Shown here: positions 30,764-42,989 of the stretch, in pieces
How the letters are laid out: the number at the start of each line of letters is the position of its first letter
How positions within the stretch are numbered: the first letter of the stretch is position 1
Program-made: the position numbers and the translations under genes
The notes under the pieces: model-generated
Database searches by the model: none
What the model saw: the letters and a program-made list of their open reading frames with translations, nothing else
Told to the model about the DNA's origin: nothing
Source: Parvibaculaceae bacterium
GTDB lineage: Bacteria > Pseudomonadota > Alphaproteobacteria > Parvibaculales > Parvibaculaceae
NCBI GenBank assembly: GCA_029209985.1
Contig: JARGNZ010000014.1
Coordinates: 1 to 64,000, forward strand
Reading direction: 5' to 3'
Length of the DNA: 64,000 bases

Positions 30764-31309
30764 TTAGAGCGTTTTTAGAACGTGCAGCCACGTATGGGTC
30801 AAGCGATTGATGCCGTCGGTAATATGACTGCATGACAGGGTGGCGCCTGTAATATTTTGAATTTGCTCGTCGAGTTCCAAATGTTCTGATGCATCTTTAC
30901 CGTGAAACTGCGCCCGCCAGTCAGCGTTCTCAATTTCAAACCCATAGGTCTCTCGGTAGGTTAGGATCTCGATCCCTTTTACTTTGCCCTCAGCGGTCAA
31001 CGCGACGGCAATATCGATGTTCTCATGTTTGCCAATGACTTGGTCGACAATGAACCACCCGCCATCTTGGGTTTTCCAAACATTCAAGTTCTCGTTGCGT
31101 ACATTCGTATCAGAGCTGTCTTCAATGGCATCAACCTGATCTGATGTCAGCTTGACTGCGACCTGCTCCATTGTCATATCCCCCCATAAGACCTGCTTGG
31201 CTTGGTCTACGGTGAGATAGGTTTTGGCAGATAGCCTTGCACTCGAAAGTGCAAGGCCAGCCATAGCGAGAGCGATGGATTTACCAAATTCACGTCTATC
31301 CAATTTCAT
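30764..31309 (-). CDS. Tat-exported FMN-binding (flavinylated) protein
   Basis: A 181-residue protein with an FMN_bind domain like that of NqrC/RnfG. The flavinylation motif is ITGAT, with the acceptor threonine at residue 157, the substrate site of ApbE. The N-terminus has a twin-arginine signal (RREFGK from R5, then a hydrophobic stretch to about residue 28). It is therefore predicted to be flavinylated in the cytoplasm by the adjacent ApbE and exported folded. It probably shuttles electrons in the periplasm. Confidence 0.85.
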   Translation of the reverse strand: MKLDRREFGKSIALAMAGLALSSARLSAKTYLTVDQAKQVLWGDMTMEQVAVKLTSDQVDAIEDSSDTNVRNENLNVWKTQDGGWFIVDQVIGKHENIDIAVALTAEGKVKGIEILTYRETYGFEIENADWRAQFHGKDASEHLELDEQIQNITGATLSCSHITDGINRLTHTWLHVLKTL

Positions 31310-31325
31310 AATCCATCACCTAATT

Positions 31326-32273
31326 TTAGAAGTTGTAAGCTACTGTTACACCCGCATGGATGCGCTCATGCTCATCCCAGTTTTTCCCATTTTCTGAATA
31401 GGAATGCTGAGAACCGCCGCCCCAAATTTGGGCAAGTACACCAGCGGTCACCCACCAGTCTTTTTCAGCGTAGTGAACAGTTGGGCCGAAGTAGTTGCCG
31501 TTTTGGTGTTGGCTACCAATACGGATGTCATCCAAATCCCAGCTTGAACGGTGCAGACCGGGGTCTGTGACGCCAAACTCTTCTGGGCTCAAATAATCTG
31601 ACTGGTGACGATATTCCAAACCAACGAACCATTTTGGTGCGACCCGGTACGCAACGCCGGCAGATAGCTCCAAGGAAATTTCTTCTTCCAAAACGTCCGG
31701 TGATGTCCGGCGCTCTAGTTCGATTTTTGGATTGATCACAAAGATCAATGTATCGTCCATGAAGTTTTTCTGCAGGAATACAGTTGCTGATACAGAGTCT
31801 TGACTGATGTCTGCGCCATCGAGACGATATTTGTCGCGGTGGTCATACCCAAGACCTAAGGAAAGACCGACGTAGTCTTTGTAAGGGCTCAACACATTGT
31901 ATTTCAGACCAATTTCATAGCCACCGAACTGCGTTTTGTTGAAACGACCACCGGCACCACCTTGGGTGTCGTGCATCGGCTGCAAGTTTGGATCATTCAC
32001 AGAATAGTTGTGATTAAAAATCATGATCTCGGCTGTGATCGTCAAAGAATCAGTAATGCCGTATTCGATTTCAGGGCGGATGTCGTTGAAGACATAATCG
32101 CCAGAGCTTTTCCCAATCCGGGAAATATTGCTCAATTTCAACTCGAATGTGCCTTGTGGGCGTGTGTCTGTGCCTTTTGCGTAAAGCCACAAGCTTTCAT
32201 CTGCCGACGCAATGTTGCTGGCGAGCATACCGCCTGCAAATGCGATTACTGACAGTAATCCTTTGATTTTCAT
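31326..32273 (-). CDS. Outer-membrane beta-barrel protein of unknown function
   Basis: A 315-residue protein with a signal peptide (cleavage near ASA at about residue 24) followed by alternating amphipathic strands and a C-terminal phenylalanine (VTVAYNF), the signature of an outer-membrane barrel. I think it belongs to the DUF6662 group of barrels but cannot verify this. It is the first gene of the minus-strand cluster and is divergent from the TonB receptor, with a Fur-box-like site between them. Confidence 0.7.
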   Translation of the reverse strand: MKIKGLLSVIAFAGGMLASNIASADESLWLYAKGTDTRPQGTFELKLSNISRIGKSSGDYVFNDIRPEIEYGITDSLTITAEIMIFNHNYSVNDPNLQPMHDTQGGAGGRFNKTQFGGYEIGLKYNVLSPYKDYVGLSLGLGYDHRDKYRLDGADISQDSVSATVFLQKNFMDDTLIFVINPKIELERRTSPDVLEEEISLELSAGVAYRVAPKWFVGLEYRHQSDYLSPEEFGVTDPGLHRSSWDLDDIRIGSQHQNGNYFGPTVHYAEKDWWVTAGVLAQIWGGGSQHSYSENGKNWDEHERIHAGVTVAYNF

Positions 32274-32366
32274 GTGTGTGTCCCTGGTCTTAGAAGCGCA
32301 TCGATGGATACCGACGCCAATAATGGCCGTTAATACTGCAAGCCATTCTCATGTGATTTTTTTCAT

Positions 32367-32381
32367 TGATAACGATTCACA
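32367..32381. promoter_or_regulatory. Candidate Fur box
   Basis: TGATAACGATTCACA matches 11 of 14 positions of the 7-1-7 Fur consensus (TGATAAT-N-ATTATCA). It lies between the divergent barrel and TonB-receptor genes, where one repressor dimer could control both. Confidence 0.5.
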
Positions 32382-32433
32382 TGTTCAATATCAATACTCC
32401 GATCTAGGTCATGCGTATTTTTTGGGGTGTGTT

Positions 32434-34584
32434 GTGAAATATGTCACTATCGGGTGTAACCACTCTACTGCTTCGTATCTGACGACAATGCTCGCTGTAC
32501 TTAGTGTGAGTATCAGCCCTGCCCTTGCCACAGATGAGGCCACTGACACCACCGTTGCCGTGACGCGGTTGGCACCCATTGCCGTCTCCGCAATGCGCAA
32601 AGACGTGCTCACCAAAGATGCTCCCCATAGTGTATATGTGCAGGAGGCTGAGCAACTCTCCCACAAACAAGTCCGCACCCTTCCAGAAGCGCTGGCGCAA
32701 ACACCCGGCGTGATGGTGCAGAAGACGGCCAATGGGCACGGCTCCCCCTTCATTCGGGGATTTACAGGGTATCGCACGCTGACCCTCATAGACGGCATTC
32801 GATATAATAATTCAGTGTACCGCGACGGGCCGAATGAATATTTCTCGCTCATCGATCTCCATTCTATTGAGAGCCTAGCCCTGCTCTCTGGCCCTTCCTC
32901 AGTTCTCTACGGCAGTGACTCTATTGGGGGCACGGTTTATTTAGAGAGCAAGCAGAGTGGCTATCAAGATGAAGCTGCCGATACATTTTTCACGCATGGA
33001 CGCGCTGCCTATCGCTATGCTTCAGGTGAAGAGAGCCATATCGTGCGCACGGAAGGCAATGTCGGCGTGGGGGGCGCATGGGGTTTACACCTTGGGTATT
33101 CCCGCAAAGCCTTTGGCAATGTGCAAGCCGCCGAACTGGGGGAACTTCCGCATACGGGCTATGACGAAGAAAACATTGATGCGCGGGTGGATGTGGCACT
33201 CAGCCCCCAATGGACCTTTGCAGCGGCTCACCAAAGCACGGACCAAGACGATGTTTGGCGCACTCATTCCACACAATATTCCAAGAGCTTTGCGGGTACG
33301 GATGTCGGATCTGACTTAAAACGATTGAAAGATCAAAAACGTCATTTGAGCTATGTGTCGTTTACCGGGGTGAAGCTACACCCGGCTTTAGACGAGTTGA
33401 GCCTCACTCTTTCGCAACAGATGTGGGAAGAAGATGGGGACCGTATTAAAAGTGATGGAAGCCGGATTATGCAAGGCTTCCGTTCGACCATGAGCGGGTT
33501 TGACCTACAGCTCACCAGCGACACGCCATTTGCAGATTTTGTGTATGGCATCGATTACTACCGCGATGACCTTGATAGCCACCGCACAGACTACAACCCG
33601 GACGGCAGTCTTGACCGGGTGCGTATTCAAGGCCCCGTTGGGGATGATGCGGTCTATGAACAGCTTGGCCTCTTTGCGCAGGCGAGCCTACCTTTATCAG
33701 ATCGCTTGGTTTTGGATCTTGGCGGGCGCTACTCTTATGTGGCCGCAGACATTGGAAAGTATGAAGATCCTATCTCTGGCACGTCGGCTGCTTATGAGAA
33801 TAATTGGCGTAACTTTTCCAGCTCCCTACGTGTTCTCTATGACTTAACCGGAGAAGACACAGACAAGGTTTGGGCCGGGGTGAGCCAGTCTTTTCGCGCC
33901 CCCAACATTGCTGATCTAAGCCGGTATGGGAAAAGTCGCTCTACTGAAACAGAAGTGGCGGCCACCACGCTCGACCCGGAAACATTTCTGACCTATGAAA
34001 TTGGCTATAAGAAATTTTCATCCCAATACGATCTCGCCGCAACCTATTACTACACTGAAATTACGGACCACATTACCAGCACACCCACAGGGCGTATTGT
34101 TGGTGGGCTGACGGAAGTGAGCAAACAAAACAGTTCTGAGGGATATGTGCAGGGCGTTGAGGTGAGTGGGCACTATTATCTGAACGATACAATCGATCTG
34201 TTTGGAAATTTTACGTGGTTGGAGACCTCGCTTCAAAATCCAATCAGCGGTATTTTTGAACCGATCAGCCGCACCATGCCGTTCACCACCACCGCAGGAG
34301 TGAATTGGCATCCTAATGATCGCTACTGGTTTAGCGCGAGTGCGACCTATGTGGCAGAAGCCGATCAATTAAGCGAAGGTGACATGAGCGACGGGGAGCG
34401 CATTCCACCGGGGGGAACGCCGGGATATATGTTGCTGAATCTCTATGGCACTCAACAAATTACAGAGGATGTGCAGCTTAACCTCGCCCTCAATAATATT
34501 TTGGATGAAGCTTATCGCACCCATGGTTCTGGCAGCAATGAGCCGGGCTTTGGGGTGACAGTGGGGCTGGAATTTACCTTTTAA
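32434..34584 (+). CDS. TonB-dependent outer-membrane receptor
   Basis: A 716-residue siderophore- or heme-type receptor. After a signal peptide comes the plug (VRTLPEALAQTPGVMVQKTANGHGSPFIRGFTGYRTLTLIDG), then a 22-strand-type barrel ending with a C-terminal Phe (LEFTF). The plug resembles heme/hemoglobin and enterobactin-type receptors, but the ligand cannot be decided. The frame is open to 32212; I choose the GTG at 32434, which gives a clean signal peptide (about 32 residues, ending SPALA). Iron control is suggested by the Fur-like site upstream. Confidence 0.92.
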   Translation: MKYVTIGCNHSTASYLTTMLAVLSVSISPALATDEATDTTVAVTRLAPIAVSAMRKDVLTKDAPHSVYVQEAEQLSHKQVRTLPEALAQTPGVMVQKTANGHGSPFIRGFTGYRTLTLIDGIRYNNSVYRDGPNEYFSLIDLHSIESLALLSGPSSVLYGSDSIGGTVYLESKQSGYQDEAADTFFTHGRAAYRYASGEESHIVRTEGNVGVGGAWGLHLGYSRKAFGNVQAAELGELPHTGYDEENIDARVDVALSPQWTFAAAHQSTDQDDVWRTHSTQYSKSFAGTDVGSDLKRLKDQKRHLSYVSFTGVKLHPALDELSLTLSQQMWEEDGDRIKSDGSRIMQGFRSTMSGFDLQLTSDTPFADFVYGIDYYRDDLDSHRTDYNPDGSLDRVRIQGPVGDDAVYEQLGLFAQASLPLSDRLVLDLGGRYSYVAADIGKYEDPISGTSAAYENNWRNFSSSLRVLYDLTGEDTDKVWAGVSQSFRAPNIADLSRYGKSRSTETEVAATTLDPETFLTYEIGYKKFSSQYDLAATYYYTEITDHITSTPTGRIVGGLTEVSKQNSSEGYVQGVEVSGHYYLNDTIDLFGNFTWLETSLQNPISGIFEPISRTMPFTTTAGVNWHPNDRYWFSASATYVAEADQLSEGDMSDGERIPPGGTPGYMLLNLYGTQQITEDVQLNLALNNILDEAYRTHGSGSNEPGFGVTVGLEFTF

Positions 34585-34602
34585 CCTTATTGACTGCTAA
34601 TA

Positions 34603-35163
34603 CTATTGATTGGCTTGAGATGCTTTTGCCGCTTGGGCCGCTTTTGCCCGCTTGCGCATCTGCCGTTTTTTCACGATTGGGAAGAAGAACATATAAAGCC
34701 CGCTTAGAGACAACACGAAAAGCACGAGACTTGAAGGCAGAAAGATCCATAGCTTTGCGGCATCATGAAAATAAGTGCCGTCGTGAATGGCTTCAATGGT
34801 GCCTGACCGCCGAAACGCCACCTGCAAGATGGCCCCTGTTTGGTGGTCGATTTGAATTTCCCAATCATTCTGGGCGCGTATTTTAACAATGCCCTTTTCA
34901 GGCCGCACGTCTAAGCGATCTATGTCTTCCCATGAGGTGACCTTTGCTTGCGGCACCTTTTGGGCGGCCGCCAAAATATCGCTGAAGGCCACCTGAGGAA
35001 CAGTTCCCTGCCCCCGCATACTGGGCGGCTGAATCCAATCACTTTCCTTTTTCAGCAACAGCAGAACGCCTGTGCCGATGACAAGCAGGACGGGGATGGC
35101 GCATAGAATTGCCCCCCAATAATGGGTTTTTCGGTTCCAGTACGTCCATTTTAGATTTGTCAT
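34603..35163 (-). CDS. PepSY-type membrane protein
   Basis: A 186-residue protein with an N-terminal membrane helix (about 15-38), a periplasmic PepSY-like domain (about 50-130) and a second helix (about 140-165) followed by a basic, Ala/Lys-rich tail. It matches the short PepSY-associated TM proteins found beside TonB receptors, whose larger relatives are thought to act as ferric-siderophore reductases. It converges on the receptor gene with an 18-base gap. Confidence 0.82.
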   Translation of the reverse strand: MTNLKWTYWNRKTHYWGAILCAIPVLLVIGTGVLLLLKKESDWIQPPSMRGQGTVPQVAFSDILAAAQKVPQAKVTSWEDIDRLDVRPEKGIVKIRAQNDWEIQIDHQTGAILQVAFRRSGTIEAIHDGTYFHDAAKLWIFLPSSLVLFVLSLSGLYMFFFPIVKKRQMRKRAKAAQAAKASQANQ

Positions 35164-35277: not shown

Positions 35278-36558
35278 CTATGCAGAAGCTGGAAACACCG
35301 GCCAAAAGCCGGTGATCTTGCCGTCTTCATACACAGCAATATCACCAAATTGGAGGAAAACAGCTTCGCTTTGGGTCGGACGCAAAAACACAAAGTCATC
35401 GGCTTTGATATCAAGTGCGGCACCACCATTCAGCATTTCTTGATTGCTGGAACGCCCAAAGGTTTTGTTTAACCGCAAGCCCGGTGGATCTTCTGGCTTG
35501 GCAAGCCAATGGCCCCCATGGATGAAAATGGTTTGATCCAAATTCCGGTCCATAAAGTTACGCATGCCGTCTGCAAATTCCAGCACCGCTGTTTCGGTTG
35601 TATCCAACGCCTTGATGACCGGAGTTGCAATGAAGGCGGCTGGTTGGAAACCTTGCAGCAACTCAGTGTCAAAGTCCGTTGGTTTGACGAGAGCAGACCC
35701 AGCTGAAATTTCATTGGCCACGTCGGTGTTTTTATACATTCGGTAGGTTGGGCTGCCCGCCGCATTGCGCGTGACGGTGTTGATTTCTGTTTCCCCAAAG
35801 ATGGCTGCGGCGGCTGCAAGGGCTTGCGTGTAAATCCCTAAAGCAGTTTCGCGCGCGCGCGTCTGCCAACCTAAAATACTTGGCACCTTCGCAAGGTGGG
35901 GTTCATAGCCCATGAAACCTGCAAAGCTTAATGAAGGGGCCTCATGGATGGTTGTCAACATCGTGGCCAGATCATCCCCGGGCTTTACACCGCCCCTGTG
36001 CAGCCCAACATCCAATTCGATGTTGATGGGCAAAACAGTGCCTTGGGCATCTGCAATGGCTTTGTACTCATTGAGGCGCTGGGGGGTATCCACAAGCCAT
36101 TGCACATTCTGGAGTGCGGCTTTGTCCTCAACAGTCAGACTGCTGAAATAGTTATGCGCGGCTTGTGCGGGCAAGGGCTTGCCTAGCAATTGGTTCGCGT
36201 CCGGCATTTCTTTGCTCAAGGTGGAGAGCATCGGTTGGTTGAAGGTCATCAAGCGATCGGACCCGCTGCGGGTGCGAATGTGGCGCAATAAGTCTACCGA
36301 CGGCAAAGATTTGGAAACGATACGGTAGCCCATATCAGCGGGCAGATCGCTGACCAAGAGATCAATATTCTCATTCAACCGCGCTTTATCAATCACAAGC
36401 GTTGGCTGAGCGATGCCTGCGTCTTTTAGGGCGCTTTGCATTTCCTTGAAATAGGGAGTACGCGGACCACTTTCATCTGCAGACCGGGCCAACGCAAGTC
36501 CTGCACCAGCCACCGCAACGCCGCCCACCAATAGGGTACGTCTGTTTACTTTAGGCAT
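35278..36558 (-). CDS. Tat-exported PLP enzyme, alanine racemase N-terminal fold
   Basis: A 426-residue protein with a twin-arginine signal (NRRTLL, R6-R7) and a fold-type III PLP barrel like D-threonine aldolase/D-serine dehydratase (DSD1 family). PTLVIDKARLNENID begins the barrel, YRIVSKSLPS holds the likely PLP lysine and INIELDVGLHRGG follows. A periplasmic PLP enzyme is unusual; Tat export would deliver it with cofactor bound. Its start overlaps the preceding gene (TAATG), so it is the third gene of an operon with an FAD oxidase and a cytochrome c. It could act on a D-amino or hydroxyamino acid; the substrate is not established. Confidence 0.82.
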   Translation of the reverse strand: MPKVNRRTLLVGGVAVAGAGLALARSADESGPRTPYFKEMQSALKDAGIAQPTLVIDKARLNENIDLLVSDLPADMGYRIVSKSLPSVDLLRHIRTRSGSDRLMTFNQPMLSTLSKEMPDANQLLGKPLPAQAAHNYFSSLTVEDKAALQNVQWLVDTPQRLNEYKAIADAQGTVLPINIELDVGLHRGGVKPGDDLATMLTTIHEAPSLSFAGFMGYEPHLAKVPSILGWQTRARETALGIYTQALAAAAAIFGETEINTVTRNAAGSPTYRMYKNTDVANEISAGSALVKPTDFDTELLQGFQPAAFIATPVIKALDTTETAVLEFADGMRNFMDRNLDQTIFIHGGHWLAKPEDPPGLRLNKTFGRSSNQEMLNGGAALDIKADDFVFLRPTQSEAVFLQFGDIAVYEDGKITGFWPVFPASA

Positions 36559-37970
36559 TACGCATCTCCCCATAGGTTAGCCATATAGGGGCTGACAAAT
36601 TTTCCCTCTGGGTCAAGTTCCCGCCGCACCTCATTGAAGCGTGCGAAATCGGGATATAGGGCTGCCAGTTCGGCAGCGGAGAGCGAGTGGTGCTTGCCCC
36701 AGTGGGGACGGCCCCCATTGCGACGCAACACGGGCTCAAACTCCTCAAAGAGATAATCGTAGCGCTCATTGGCTTTGGCGTGGAGCGCAATGGACATGCG
36801 CGGACCACCCTGAAATGGGCTGAGCCACGCGTCGTCCTGCTCGGTCACACGCACTTCTACGGGGAAGAAAATCTCATTCTTTCTCTCCACCATCGGCAGA
36901 ATTTCTCGCAAGGTCTTCATGCCGTTCTCAAGCGGGATATGGTATTCCATCTCGTTGAATTTTGTGACGCGGCTGGTGGACAGCAACTTACGAGCAGAAT
37001 CGCTGACGTCTTCCAATACGCCCTCAGGCAATTGGCTTAAAGCGACTTGCTTGCGCAACCATGGCCACCATCCAAAAATATCGCGCAATTGTTGAAGCGC
37101 CTCGACGATGTCTTCGTCTTCACTGGCTGCCCGGCCCGTGACATCGCCTTCATGGAGATCATGAGACAATGCGGCAGCAACGCCTGTACCGGGGATATAG
37201 AGAAGTTCAAAGTTGCGGTGTGTATTGATACGCTCTTCAAACTGATCCATGATTTCGTCCATCTGAACCGTCCAAACACGGCGATGCAGATTGAACAGTT
37301 TTTCGAGTTTAAGGTCGTACCGGGTGATCACACCCAACGCCCCTAAGGACACTTTACCCGCTTGCAGCAGATGTGGATTAGAGGTCGCGCTTACTTCTTT
37401 GATCTCGCCCCCTGCGGTCACCAATTGGAAGCCTTGCACATAATCGTGCATGGCAGGCAACTTCAACCCTGTGCCATGTGTGGCTGTGGAAAACGCGCCT
37501 GCCATTGTTTGCACGTCGATGTCGGGCATGTTGGCGAAGCCAAGGCCGACTCCTTCCAACAAACGGGCAGCCTGATTGAGCCGTGTGCCAGCTCCCAGAC
37601 TTGCGGTTTGGGCAGCGGTATCATGGGCCAATAAACCCGATACGCCGCTGATGTCGACAATGGTGCCTTCAGAGGGCACCAAGCCGGTGAAGCTGTGCCC
37701 CGTGCCAACCGGGCGAATGGGTGCTGGGGCTGTTGCGACAAGATCAGCAACGGCTTTGACATTCTGGGGCACACCGAATTGTTTCGGGGTGGCTTTTTGT
37801 GCACCCGACCAATTCATCCAAGCCTTCTCACCTGTGGGCGGGGTGGGGAGATTTGCATCAAAGCCGGGACGTTCAAAATCTTTCGCTGACCACATCCCTT
37901 GCGCAACGACTGGCACGGCAACAAGCGTTGCGGCCCCGCCTAACAGAATATTTCGACGTGAAAATTTCAT
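36558..37970 (-). CDS. Tat-exported FAD-linked sugar-lactone-oxidase-like protein
   Basis: A 470-residue flavoprotein of the D-arabinono-1,4-lactone oxidase family. It has a twin-arginine signal (SRRNILLGG, R5-R6), a PCMH-type FAD domain (APIRPVGTGHSFTGLVPSEG, then TMAGAFSTATHGTG) and the C-terminal RPHWGKHH characteristic of the family. Family members oxidise sugar lactones or polyols at C1/C2. Here electrons probably pass to the cytochrome encoded upstream rather than to oxygen; that is inference from the operon. It overlaps the cytochrome gene by four bases (ATGA). Confidence 0.88.
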   Translation of the reverse strand: MKFSRRNILLGGAATLVAVPVVAQGMWSAKDFERPGFDANLPTPPTGEKAWMNWSGAQKATPKQFGVPQNVKAVADLVATAPAPIRPVGTGHSFTGLVPSEGTIVDISGVSGLLAHDTAAQTASLGAGTRLNQAARLLEGVGLGFANMPDIDVQTMAGAFSTATHGTGLKLPAMHDYVQGFQLVTAGGEIKEVSATSNPHLLQAGKVSLGALGVITRYDLKLEKLFNLHRRVWTVQMDEIMDQFEERINTHRNFELLYIPGTGVAAALSHDLHEGDVTGRAASEDEDIVEALQQLRDIFGWWPWLRKQVALSQLPEGVLEDVSDSARKLLSTSRVTKFNEMEYHIPLENGMKTLREILPMVERKNEIFFPVEVRVTEQDDAWLSPFQGGPRMSIALHAKANERYDYLFEEFEPVLRRNGGRPHWGKHHSLSAAELAALYPDFARFNEVRRELDPEGKFVSPYMANLWGDA

Positions 37971-38350
37971 GGTTTTGTTTCCCCGGACATAAATTCGATC
38001 AGACCCACCATATCCGCATCACTGCAATCGTTGCAGTAGCCGTTGACGGGCATGGCGTTAAACCCATTGCGCGTGGAGCGCAGCAGACCGTCCCAGCCAC
38101 GTTCGGCGAGACGTACACGCCACACAGCCCCTTGGCCTGTAAGAGGGGCGGCAGCATCTACCAAGCTATGACAGCCGCGACAGGAGCGGTCATATTTTTC
38201 TGCCAAATTCGCATCGACCGGCATGGCCTCTTCGGCAAAGATGATTTGTGCGGGCGTGGGCGGCAAGAGGGCGGCGCGCTCGTCCTCGGACTGGGGCGCG
38301 TCACAGCCCCCCAGCACCCCCGCCATCATACAAAGTAGTAATTTCCGCAT
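37967..38350 (-). CDS. Cytochrome c5-like lipoprotein
   Basis: A 127-residue protein with a lipobox ending at C16 (LGGC) and one heme-binding site, C57-R-G-C60-H61. The expected axial Met is M100 in GFNAMPVNGYCNDCS, which also contains the two extra cysteines (C106, C109) typical of the c5 group. It is a membrane-tethered periplasmic electron carrier. It is the first gene of the operon and probably the electron acceptor of the flavoprotein that follows. Confidence 0.88.
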   Translation of the reverse strand: MRKLLLCMMAGVLGGCDAPQSEDERAALLPPTPAQIIFAEEAMPVDANLAEKYDRSCRGCHSLVDAAAPLTGQGAVWRVRLAERGWDGLLRSTRNGFNAMPVNGYCNDCSDADMVGLIEFMSGETKP

Positions 38351-38372
38351 ATCCTAGCCCCCTTATTTTTTC

Positions 38373-38388
38373 AGTAGCATATACTATT
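38373..38388. promoter_or_regulatory. Palindromic operator, copy A
   Basis: AGTAGCATATACTATT, an imperfect version of the perfect palindrome at 38531-38546. It lies just upstream of the cytochrome gene and is probably bound by the divergent TetR protein. Confidence 0.6.
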
Positions 38389-38530
38389 AGAAAATTTTCT
38401 GTCAATCGCAGAGAGGCAGCAACGTGCGAAACCATAGGGGGCACTTGAATTTTGACTGGAACTTTGCTGGAATTTTGATAGTCTATGAGAAGAAACTTGC
38501 TTGAGTATCCTGACAAGGATATCTATTTTC

Positions 38531-38546
38531 AGTAGTATTTACTACT
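38531..38546. promoter_or_regulatory. Palindromic operator, copy B
   Basis: AGTAGTATTTACTACT, a perfect 7-2-7 inverted repeat about 58 bases before the TetR start. Together with copy A it brackets the intergenic region, so one regulator probably controls both directions. Confidence 0.7.
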
Positions 38547-38603
38547 ATAAAAACATCTAATCCTAAAGGGCACCTGCGTCGGCAAGGTGATACAGCAAAG
38601 TTG

Positions 38604-39230
38604 ATGACAGACACTCTTTCCAGCTCGATGTTGAAGCGCCCTCGGCAAGAACGTGCCATGCGCACCTTCGACCTTGTGCTCACGTCTGCGGTCATCTTGC
38701 TGGAAAAAGATGGCTTTGACAAATTGACGACAAACGCCATTTGCAAACACGCGGGCCTAACCCCCCCTGCCCTCTATCGCTATTTCCCCAATAAATACGC
38801 TGTCTTGCGTGAATTGGGCGAGCGGCTTATGCAGGTTCAAAACTTAGATTATTTCAGGTGGCAGGATAAATACGCCGATGTTTTGCCCGATGCAGACAGC
38901 ATCGCTCAATTGATCCGTAGTCAATATGATGTCACCTGCGCCCAACGGGGAGCAAAGTGGATCATGCGCTCGCTGCACTCGGTGCCAGAGCTTGCAGAAG
39001 TGCGCACAACCTCGCATGCATATGTCGCCGATAAAATGACCGCGCCGTTTCGACACCAAAAAGTCGCGTGGGACGAAAAAACCCTGCAACGGCGCTGCCG
39101 GATTATGGTTGAAACAAGCTATGCGGTTTTGGAAATGCTTCTCGATGAACGTAGCGAAGATGTGGACGCCATTTGCCAAGACACAGGCCGCCTGATTGCA
39201 GGTTTCATGGACGACATTCGCCCAGATTAA
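38604..39230 (+). CDS. TetR family transcriptional regulator
   Basis: A 208-residue regulator with a TetR DNA-binding domain (about residues 20-70: FDKLTTNAICKHAGLTPPALYRYFPNKYAVLREL) and a C-terminal ligand domain. It is divergent from the cytochrome/flavoprotein/PLP-enzyme operon; two related palindromes separate them. The start is ATG at 38604, one codon after an in-frame TTG, with AAGGTGA upstream. Confidence 0.92.
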   Translation: MTDTLSSSMLKRPRQERAMRTFDLVLTSAVILLEKDGFDKLTTNAICKHAGLTPPALYRYFPNKYAVLRELGERLMQVQNLDYFRWQDKYADVLPDADSIAQLIRSQYDVTCAQRGAKWIMRSLHSVPELAEVRTTSHAYVADKMTAPFRHQKVAWDEKTLQRRCRIMVETSYAVLEMLLDERSEDVDAICQDTGRLIAGFMDDIRPD

Positions 39231-40601: not shown

Positions 40602-42341
40602 ATGCATCCGGCTCTCTGGCAGCTCGAATATCTTTTTGACGTTGGGGCCAAAAGTTGGCTGGTTCACTTGGGCGTCGTGAGCTTTGCTTTTTATGCCCTT
40701 GGTACCCACACGACCGGGACCTATGTTTGGTTGGGGGGGATGCTTTTTCTCTCTGCGGCCCTCTTGCTTTTGTGCCGCACAGGCGCGTTGCTTGAGAGTA
40801 GCAATGAACAAGCGCTGGTGTTGTTTGGATGGGGTCATACAGTGCTCACCAGCTTTGTCGGCATTGGCTGGGGAGTTGGGGCCATTATTGCCGCTCAAAG
40901 CTCCTTTGAGGAATTGATGGTGTTTTCGCTGGCGTTGGGGGGCACGGCATTGGGGGCCATTTCTTCTCAAAGCTCCGTTATGCGGTCCTGCCTGACAAGC
41001 TTGTGGACATCCATTCCTCTGCTTGCCTTTGCCCATTACCTTTTTGACTCTGAAACATCTGCCGTGCCCAATGCCGCGCTTATGATCCTTTATGGATTGA
41101 TCATGTCTATTTTGGCCTACCGGGTGAACGGCTTTCTCACGGCAAATCATGATCTTGCTGCTGATCTTGATTTGCAAGTCGAAGCACTCAAAATTTCAAA
41201 CCAAGAATTGGCATTTGAGCGCGAACGGGCGGACAGCGCAAACACAAGTAAGTCTCGCTTCCTTGCACATGCCAGTCATGACCTTCGTCAACCTCTCCAT
41301 GCCATTGGTATGCTCACCAGTGGCTTACACCATGAAGACTTGCCAAAATCTGCCCGAGAAAGCGTTTGGAAAATTGAGCAATCTGTCACTGCCATGAGCG
41401 CGCTTTTTCGTTCTTTGCTGAACTTCTCCACGCTGGAGTTAGGGCAGGTTAAAATTTCTGCAGCACCCGTTGATCTCAATGCTTTGCTGCATCAGATTGT
41501 TGAGCTTAATACGAGCGCAGCGGAGCGTTCGGGATGTCGACTTAAAGCCTTCCCCACGCGGCATTGGGTTACAGCTGATCCGGCTCTGTTGACAAATATG
41601 GTTCAAAACCTTGTCTCCAATGCGATCAAATATTCACCCGGAGAGCGCATTTTGGTGGGCACCAAATTGCGCGGCGAGCACGTCAGCATATGTGTCATCG
41701 ATCAAGGCCCCGGCATTGAGCAGGCAGAGCAGCCTTTAGTTTTTCAAGAATTTTACCGCCCTACCCAGCTCCACGAAACCCACCAAGATGGCTTGGGTTT
41801 AGGGCTGTCGCTGGTTGCTCGGTTTGCCAAATTGATGCACTTGGAATGCCATTTGCGTTCAGTTGAGGGCCGGGGAACGTCGGTAGAAATTTCGGGCCTC
41901 ATCCCAACCGCCCAACAAGCCGTGCAACATGGCCCCAGCGCCTTGCCGCCGCACCGCCTGTCGGGTCTGCGTGTGCATGTGGTTGATGATGACCCTGCAA
42001 CCCTTGCTGCGACCGTCGCCGTGCTGGAACGATGGGGATGCCAAGCCAGCTCATCGCTCACCGTTCCCGACACGCTCGACGCATTGGATTTTCTAATTAC
42101 AGATTATGAATTGGCGTCTGGGGTGACAGGAAAAGACTGCATCGCACGTATGCGCCAAAACACGTCTGCCGCCCTGCCCGCGCTCATTGTCTCGGGCCGG
42201 GTTGATTTGCACTTAAACACGCTGGGTATTGAAGACCCGATCGCGCTTCTTGCCAAACCGGCGCACCCCGCACAATTGCGCGCCTTGATGTTGTCGCTTC
42301 TCATCCGTAGCGACGACATGAAAGATGTGAGTGTTTCATAA
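40602..42341 (+). CDS. Hybrid sensor histidine kinase
   Basis: A 579-residue membrane sensor kinase. Residues about 15-190 form six or so membrane segments, followed by a short coiled coil. The phosphoacceptor is H226 in SHDLRQPLH. The ATPase has the N box NMVQNLVSNAIKYSP and G boxes DQGPGIEQ and GLGLGLSLV. A C-terminal receiver domain keeps the phosphorylatable aspartate D501 (FLITDYELA). The signal is unknown. It faces a NarL-type regulator ending 33 bases away, its probable partner. Confidence 0.92.
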   Translation: MHPALWQLEYLFDVGAKSWLVHLGVVSFAFYALGTHTTGTYVWLGGMLFLSAALLLLCRTGALLESSNEQALVLFGWGHTVLTSFVGIGWGVGAIIAAQSSFEELMVFSLALGGTALGAISSQSSVMRSCLTSLWTSIPLLAFAHYLFDSETSAVPNAALMILYGLIMSILAYRVNGFLTANHDLAADLDLQVEALKISNQELAFERERADSANTSKSRFLAHASHDLRQPLHAIGMLTSGLHHEDLPKSARESVWKIEQSVTAMSALFRSLLNFSTLELGQVKISAAPVDLNALLHQIVELNTSAAERSGCRLKAFPTRHWVTADPALLTNMVQNLVSNAIKYSPGERILVGTKLRGEHVSICVIDQGPGIEQAEQPLVFQEFYRPTQLHETHQDGLGLGLSLVARFAKLMHLECHLRSVEGRGTSVEISGLIPTAQQAVQHGPSALPPHRLSGLRVHVVDDDPATLAATVAVLERWGCQASSSLTVPDTLDALDFLITDYELASGVTGKDCIARMRQNTSAALPALIVSGRVDLHLNTLGIEDPIALLAKPAHPAQLRALMLSLLIRSDDMKDVSVS

Positions 42342-42374
42342 CCGCCACGATCACGATCACGTGGGCGAACAGGC

Positions 42375-42989
42375 TTATAGTCCGATTTCACGGCCCATAG
42401 CCGCTGCCGCCGCCCGTGATGTCACCGCCAATGATTGCAACAAGGCAGATACATGTGAGCGCACGGTGTAGGGAGAAAGGTCGAGATCCCGCGCAATCTC
42501 CTTGTTGCTTTTTCCTTCTACAATCAGCCGCAGCACCTCTCGTTGGCGCGGGGGCAGATGGGAAATATCCGACTGCAAACCGGTGGCGGGCAATTGGGAG
42601 GCCCCTTCAGGTCCGCGCACAACAATATCTCCGTTCAATACATCCATGATGGCCGCGCCAATTTCGGAGGGATCGATCGCCTTGCTGATGAAACCATCCA
42701 CCCCATGCGCCAACACATCGGCAATGGTTTTTTGGTCATCTTTCATGGAAATGATCAGAATGGAAGAGGCTGGGTGGGATTTACGCAGGTGACGAATAGA
42801 AGTGGCGGGGTCAAAGCCCGGGAACCCTAAATCAAGCACAAACAGCGTGGGGTGGGTGTCTTGGGCCAAATTGAGCACCGCTTGGAATGTATCGGCCTCG
42901 AAGATACTGGCTTCGGGTAACGCCCGTTGGACCAACCGTCGCACGCCTTCTCGAAAAACCGGATGGTCATCTGCAATGATTATTTCCAT
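42375..42989 (-). CDS. NarL/LuxR-type response regulator
   Basis: A 204-residue two-domain regulator. The receiver (about 1-120) has acidic DD near residues 7-8, phosphorylation site D53 (VLDLGFPG) and a lysine in FISKAIDPSE. The C-terminal LuxR helix-turn-helix (about 140-200) contains LPPRQREVLRLIVEGKSNKEIARDLDLS. It is convergent with the hybrid kinase, which most likely phosphorylates it. Confidence 0.92.
   Translation of the reverse strand: MEIIIADDHPVFREGVRRLVQRALPEASIFEADTFQAVLNLAQDTHPTLFVLDLGFPGFDPATSIRHLRKSHPASSILIISMKDDQKTIADVLAHGVDGFISKAIDPSEIGAAIMDVLNGDIVVRGPEGASQLPATGLQSDISHLPPRQREVLRLIVEGKSNKEIARDLDLSPYTVRSHVSALLQSLAVTSRAAAAAMGREIGL

Follow-up and report, generated by a model that had tools for sequence, protein, structure and literature searches.

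What does a bacterium do with a cytochrome, a flavoprotein and a pyridoxal 5'-phosphate (PLP) protein that are encoded side by side and all carry export signals? Such a trio lies at 35278-38350 in a stretch of 64,000 nucleotides from a Parvibaculaceae bacterium (Alphaproteobacteria; assembly GCA_029209985.1, contig JARGNZ010000014.1, positions 1 to 64,000), which we call the window. An earlier reading of the letters alone (the sequence-only reading) knew of no named pathway of this composition. The composition is already known, however, since the same trio is found in Pseudomonas aeruginosa as sphBCD (PMC3900636, PMC11893366). By sequence, the window operon is an alphaproteobacterial sphBCD-type operon, a kind of trio already described in Pseudomonas. 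Periplasmic oxidation of sphingoid bases with electron transfer to SphB is the best-supported reading of its function, with homology and genomic association pointing to the substrate, and we regard sphingoid-base oxidation as quite likely. What is new beyond Pseudomonas sphBCD is a TetR/operator pair, a link to ceramidase, changes in the SphD active site, and a missed Tat start in SphD of P. aeruginosa.

Organization of the operon and its known counterparts

The trio consists of the following genes:

37967..38350, minus strand: SphB-like c5-type cytochrome c lipoprotein of 127 amino acids (from Pfam Cytochrome_CBB3 and homology to SphB)
36558..37970, minus strand: SphC-like flavin adenine dinucleotide (FAD) oxidoreductase of the ALO/VAO family, predicted to be exported by twin-arginine translocation (Tat) (from Pfam, TIGR01679 and homology to SphC)
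35278..36558, minus strand: SphD-like PLP protein, predicted to be Tat-exported and to have a D-threonine-aldolase fold (from homology to SphD and a model)

All three open reading frames (ORFs) of the sequence-only reading are present on the minus strand, and the two Tat signals and one lipobox that it described can be read on the proteins. The SphB-like protein has a lipobox-like signal (MRKLLLCMMAGVLGGC), a single CxxCH haem motif (CRGCH) and the c5-type CNDC pair, and it matches Pfam Cytochrome_CBB3 (E 3.6e-10). The SphC-like protein has the twin-arginine motif SRRNILLGG and FAD_binding_4 and ALO domains (E 5.3e-46), and the SphD-like protein has the motif NRRTLLVGG and an Ala_racemase_N barrel (E 3.3e-14). 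The start of the latter is the ATG at 36558, with an alternative in-frame ATG upstream at 36573. Judged by their lipobox and Tat motifs, SphB and SphC are exported. The genes overlap by ATGA between SphB and SphC and by TAATG between SphC and SphD; hence, translation of the trio is probably coupled, as had been proposed.

The window trio matches P. aeruginosa sphBCD (PA5328-PA5326, the SphR regulon) gene for gene, in the same order, co-directional and adjacent, with a c5 lipoprotein, a Tat flavoprotein and an SphD-type PLP protein in both. The identities are 36.6% for SphC, 42% over 404 amino acids for SphD and 43% over 83 amino acids (the haem domain) for SphB. Both genomes encode a ceramidase. 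They differ in the regulator, which is TetR with paired operators in the window and an adjacent AraC-type SphR in P. aeruginosa, and in the SphC gatekeeper residue, which is Pro in the window and Ala in P. aeruginosa. In a tblastn search of plasmid records, the trio was also recovered from the Ruegeria pomeroyi megaplasmid and, adjoining sphR, from a P. aeruginosa record. In R. pomeroyi DSS-3 (SPO_RS19885-19875), a TetR gene lies directly upstream, and the identities to the window are 51.6% (SphC), 52% (SphB) and about 40% (SphD). This locus differs in that its SphD has no Tat signal, a gene for a DUF819 membrane protein comes next, and its TetR is only weakly similar.

In P. aeruginosa, sphBCD is induced by sphingosine via SphR (PMC3900636). 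Mutants without sphBCD or sphC grow more slowly with sphingosine, and the sphBCD mutant accumulates it; its consumption requires SphB and SphC, and the product was not identified there (PMC11893366).

Co-conservation of the three genes

Two samples were used. The first comprises 80 SphD loci, which are the best-scoring matches from genome contigs and are therefore biased to close relatives; the second is an even draw of 397 genomes across the phylum. SphC lies directly upstream on the same strand in 77 of the 80 loci, and SphB is present in 34 of them. In the phylum sample, SphD occurs in 26 of the 397 genomes, with SphC within 1.5 kb in 23. The sequence-only reading, which would have been contradicted by genes found mostly apart, is thus borne out on co-conservation.

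The operon occurs in three forms. Wherever SphB is present, both SphC and SphD carry twin-arginine motifs (37/37 in a regular-expression test). A second SphC-SphD form has neither a Tat motif on SphD nor SphB, and a third form, mostly from Hyphomonas, has Tat motifs and no adjacent SphB. SphC without SphD is common in the family of the window's organism, and P. fluorescens WCS365 likewise has SphC without SphD (PMC11893366). All-against-all clustering of 84 loci gave no constant partners beyond SphB, SphC, SphD and TetR; larger clusters whose ORFs lie on the other strand or out of frame were rejected as shadow ORFs.

A rearranged locus is found on a plasmid of Yoonia sp. SS1-5 (L044/L047), with the order SphB-SphC-DUF819-GDSL hydrolase and SphD about 4 kb off and convergent. 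There, SphD adjoins an AMP-binding (acyl-CoA synthetase-like) gene and a hydrolase, neighbours that fit a long-chain product.

A ceramidase in the same genome

The window's genome encodes a complete neutral ceramidase outside the window (G000:C7:4211-6244), with PF04734 and PF17048 over the whole protein. It is a full-length relative of the P. aeruginosa and human neutral ceramidase structures and scores 421.6 against the NCBIfam equivalog model, below the cut-off of 1200.

Ceramidase is associated with SphD or the trio in three comparisons, the counts being uncorrected for phylogeny or kinship. Among 61 relatives, ceramidase is present in 8 of 12 genomes with SphD and in 0 of 49 without (p 1.7e-7), with seven of the eight from one genus. 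The phylum sample holds five genomes with ceramidase, three with SphD and two among the 371 without it (p 0.002, or 0.02 without the window's own genome). Among 34 genomes chosen for the trio, ceramidase is found in 11, all with SphB (11/22 with SphB vs 0/12 without, p 0.003), and these span several families and two classes.

A probe for serine palmitoyltransferase (TIGR01825, alpha-oxoamine synthases) found just 5-aminolevulinate (ALA) synthase and BioF in the window's genome. With no serine palmitoyltransferase among the matches, the sphingolipid probably comes from other organisms. Because the exported trio resembles sphBCD and ceramidase releases sphingosine from ceramide, we propose that the bacterium probably breaks down the sphingolipids of other organisms outside the cytoplasm.

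The flavoprotein SphC

The description of SphC as sugar-lactone-oxidase-like holds at the broad family level only. The protein exceeds the cut-off of TIGR01679 (bacterial FAD-linked oxidoreductase; 457.4 vs 292.25 bits) and stays below that of TIGR01678 (sugar 1,4-lactone oxidase; 157.7 vs 396.8 bits). A D-arabinono-lactone/ascorbate-type pathway was rejected on this cut-off and because no partner gene suggests sugars.

The solved relatives nearest to SphC by sequence are alditol/xylitol oxidases. SphC shares its sequence family and the catalytic Glu, Arg and Lys with alditol/xylitol oxidase (AldO), GULO, ALO and GalDH, and the His that binds FAD covalently with AldO, GULO and ALO. All intact trio members that were checked retain His92 (covalent FAD) and Glu372, Arg374 and Lys426. 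Apart from its score, SphC differs from AldO and the aldonolactone oxidoreductases in its Tat export, its cytochrome partner gene and its gatekeeper Pro.

The gatekeeper residue of GalDH is Ala113, and Gly at this position confers oxygen reactivity (PMC11099136). The equivalent residue in the window is Pro149. Gly is found at this position only in loci without SphB (19/19 Gly loci); where SphB is present, the residue is Pro, with a single Ala (37/37). As the pattern amounts to just two independent contrasts on the tree, and as some Hyphomonas loci have Pro but no SphB, we take it as a hint only. In a midpoint-rooted tree, the window SphC clusters with those of Sphingomonadaceae and Sphingorhabdus (support 100/99).

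Two unusual loci were seen. In Ruegeria sp. HKCCD8929 (L082, 6531-8005), SphC is split into two ORFs at the same operon position, perhaps a pseudogene or an assembly error. In Arthrobacter sp. ERGS1:01 (L154, 1697-4299), an ALO-type flavoprotein comes after, not before, an alanine-racemase-fold protein; this pair is a possible distant actinobacterial counterpart.

The PLP protein SphD

Both sequence and model place SphD near the D-threonine aldolases. These are its nearest relatives in the PDB by sequence, and profile-profile comparison with the canonical HxD-type family gives a probability of 99.3% over 351 columns. The AlphaFold2 model has a pLDDT of 91.6. VIA-align, run on Foldseek's candidates only, so that a fold missing from its list is uninformative, gives Z 34-35 to D-threonine and hydroxyaspartate aldolases and 27 or less to alanine racemases. 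The fold proposed by the sequence-only reading is thus retained, whereas the metal site of D-threonine aldolase is absent.

In the D-threonine aldolase AxDTA, His347 and Asp349 are the metal ligands, His193 is the proposed base, and the metal activates the beta-hydroxyl (PMC4401734). In the profile-profile alignment, the metal motif P-H-C-D falls on P-T-Q-S-E of SphD, and Gln396-Ser-Glu398 replaces HxD. Gln396 and Glu398 are invariant in 49/49 members, as is the PLP lysine, Lys83 (49/49). The residue aligned to His193 is Lys, Ala or Ser, with an invariant His three residues earlier. A profile search found no match to the PF14031 domain in SphD. Hence, SphD shares a predicted fold, the PLP lysine and an alignable C-terminal beta domain with the fold type III D-threonine aldolases, beta-hydroxyaspartate aldolases and D-serine dehydratases, and differs from them in its invariant QxE in place of HxD/HxC, the missing PF14031 match and its export. 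Its catalysis may resemble that of such an aldolase. Its active site is rebuilt, however, and its residues argue against classing SphD as a D-threonine aldolase.

Elsewhere in the window's genome (L187, 670-1824, contig C39), a separate member of the D-threonine-aldolase family is encoded that is of the canonical HxD type and, by sequence, cytoplasmic. Identity of SphD with BhcC of the beta-hydroxyaspartate cycle was rejected (42.6 bits vs a cut-off of 690).

These results bear on the substrate class named by the sequence-only reading. In a salvage of D-beta-hydroxy amino acids such as D-threonine, D-serine or hydroxyaspartate, the PLP protein would cleave the amino acid in the periplasm, the FAD enzyme would oxidize the aldehyde, and the electrons would pass to cytochrome c. 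The closeness of the model to D-threonine and beta-hydroxyaspartate aldolases and the invariant PLP lysine agree with this. The exchange of both metal ligands for Gln and Glu in every SphD, the position of His193 without His, the low BhcC score and the separate HxD-type protein do not, and salvage leaves both the ceramidase association and the induction by sphingosine in Pseudomonas unexplained. We therefore consider it very unlikely; in view of the sphBCD identity, a sphingoid base is the likelier substrate.

Regarding export, SphD of P. aeruginosa p1B17416 (NZ_CP070468.1) is annotated to start at MRPADRGG. The in-frame stretch upstream, (GTG)NRRKFMFAGLGAGALLAGAAAW, is a Tat signal; the missed start (noted at L046:6271-6358) is a GTG followed by the Tat signal NRRKFMFAGLGAGALLAG. 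Other pseudomonad-type SphD members likewise have an upstream in-frame Tat signal, and SphD is therefore probably periplasmic in P. aeruginosa too. The pseudomonad-type proteins (L046, L131-L136) have Phe where 49/49 other aligned members, that of the window included, have His221 (GYEPH), which is perhaps relevant to the dispensability of SphD in P. aeruginosa.

A TetR regulator with paired operators

The region upstream of the operon holds three further features:

38604..39230, plus strand: divergently oriented regulator of the TetR family, presumed to repress both the operon and its own gene (from Pfam TetR_N)
38368..38394, no strand: predicted operator 1, TTTTCAGTAGCATATACTATTAGAAAA, 18 bp upstream of the SphB start (from the sequence repeat)
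38526..38552, no strand: predicted operator 2, TTTTCAGTAGTATTTACTACTATAAAA, about 50 bp upstream of the TetR start (from the sequence repeat)

The 250-bp region between SphB and TetR contains two 27-nt copies that are 85% alike, one per promoter. The pattern CAGTAGNATNTACTA has two full matches in the window's genome, both being the paired operators; matches with two mismatches showed no excess over a reversed-pattern control. With at most one mismatch, TAGTANNTACTA has six matches in the 84 other loci (1.25 Mb), all at the operon promoter, immediately before SphB or before the TetR gene that precedes it. They come from Yoonia (L044), a Sphingomonadaceae bacterium (L048), Hyphomonas jannaschiana (L070), Hellea (L075), an unclassified alphaproteobacterium (L081) and Ruegeria (L082). 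A TetR homologue (at least 75 bits) is close to the operon in 17 other loci. No AraC gene adjoins the window operon, which has TetR instead; the genome was not searched for SphR. TetR is probably a local switch acting on paired operators that overlap both promoters, and we infer its ligand and the sign of control.

Proposed mechanism and its alternatives

As a working model, sphingoid bases (sphingosine, sphinganine or phytosphingosine) would be freed from foreign sphingolipids by the genome's ceramidase and reach the periplasm. SphC would oxidize these bases to an aldehyde or acid, with the C1 CH2OH as the most likely site, and the electrons would pass via the SphB cytochrome c lipoprotein to the respiratory chain. 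SphD would then bind the oxidized product through its C2 amine as a PLP aldimine and cleave C2-C3, giving a long-chain aldehyde and a two-carbon amine (glycine or glycinal). Electron transfer from the FAD enzyme to the cytochrome, as the sequence-only reading had it, is probable. Its order of steps is likely the reverse, with oxidation first and the PLP step second.

D-erythro-sphingosine is (2S,3R). By our own Cahn-Ingold-Prelog reasoning, a carboxylate at C1 swaps the priorities at C2, which would give a (2R,3R) acid, a D-allo beta-hydroxy-alpha-amino acid. We prefer C1 because this acid belongs to the substrate class of the D-threonine-aldolase fold, and because, among proteins of known structure, SphC is closest to the alditol oxidases, which take a primary alcohol (C1) to the aldehyde or acid (PMC10771423). 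Both C1 as the oxidized carbon and the retro-aldol step are inferred, the latter tentatively in view of the changed metal site of SphD. That the operon is an sphBCD-type sphingoid-base system of this kind seems likely to us; the exact C1-oxidation and retro-aldol chemistry is possible and falls somewhat short of probable.

The changed metal site also bears on oxidation at another carbon. SphC could oxidize the C3 hydroxyl to a 3-keto-sphingoid base, with SphD catalyzing a non-retro-aldol reaction such as epimerization at C2; this overlaps with the preferred reading in having the same substrate. ALO-family enzymes such as GalDH oxidize a secondary alcohol, C2 of the lactone (PMC11099136), the fold of SphD is shared with racemases, and SphD has lost the metal by which D-threonine aldolase activates the beta-hydroxyl (PMC4401734). 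As the nearest solved relatives of SphC oxidize C1 and SphD is clearly nearer to aldolases and dehydratases than to racemases, we think C3 oxidation unlikely, yet keep it as a serious rival.

Several observations weigh against a sphingoid-base system. SphD is without the metal ligands considered indispensable to D-threonine aldolase, and it is dispensable for growth of P. aeruginosa (PMC11893366), where even the action of SphC on sphingosine may be indirect. The sphBC genes of C. crescentus and P. fluorescens WCS365 have little or no phenotype (PMC11893366). The SphC proteins of the window and P. aeruginosa lie on deeply separate branches of the midpoint-rooted tree. Half of the sampled genomes with SphB are without this ceramidase family, the ceramidase counts carry no correction for kinship, and the whole-genome search placed no full operator match upstream of the ceramidase gene. 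An SphA homologue was not found in the window's genome, in a search without a positive control.

The divergence of SphC and the weak or null phenotypes, together with the cytochrome-less SphC-SphD form, partly without Tat signals and with ceramidase in 0/12 genomes, would suit a different lipid, i.e., another long-chain amino-alcohol or amine such as a bacterial or algal sphingoid analogue, with sphingosine as a side substrate at best. Since the window's genome itself encodes a ceramidase, ceramidase is enriched where the trio is exported and includes the cytochrome, and the active-site residues of SphD are common to the whole family, we consider a different lipid rather unlikely and retain sphingoid bases as the preferred substrate.

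Neighbouring genes

At 30764-35163, the window encodes a flavin mononucleotide (FMN)-binding, RnfG-like Tat protein, a DUF6662 outer-membrane protein, a haem-type TonB receptor and a PepSY protein. This block adjoining the operon resembles a set for haem/iron reduction and uptake. On the other side, past TetR, DUF1348 and PAN-domain genes, a NahK/ErcS-like hybrid histidine kinase and a LuxR-type response regulator are encoded at 40602-42989.

Implications for sphingolipid breakdown

The sphBCD-type system extends far beyond Pseudomonas, and its cytochrome-bearing form is tied to ceramidase. For the sphBCD-dependent loss of sphingosine, a testable two-step chemistry is proposed. SphD emerges as a partner that is conserved and in most cases exported, with a remodelled active site, and not as a plain threonine aldolase, and the compact TetR/operator pair could serve to read out the inducer.

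Sphingosine is an antimicrobial lipid of animals and plants. A tentative and, on balance, doubtful extension is a kinase-free periplasmic breakdown of sphingoid bases, in which SphC would oxidize C1 with cytochrome c as acceptor, SphD would catalyze a metal-independent retro-aldol cleavage, and, in the alphaproteobacteria, control would lie with a TetR that senses sphingoids; the route would serve bacteria that make no sphingolipids and feed on or disarm those of eukaryotes. If true, this route would be a functional parallel to sphingosine-1-phosphate lyase, and many aquatic bacteria would meet eukaryotic sphingolipids via one exported oxidation module.

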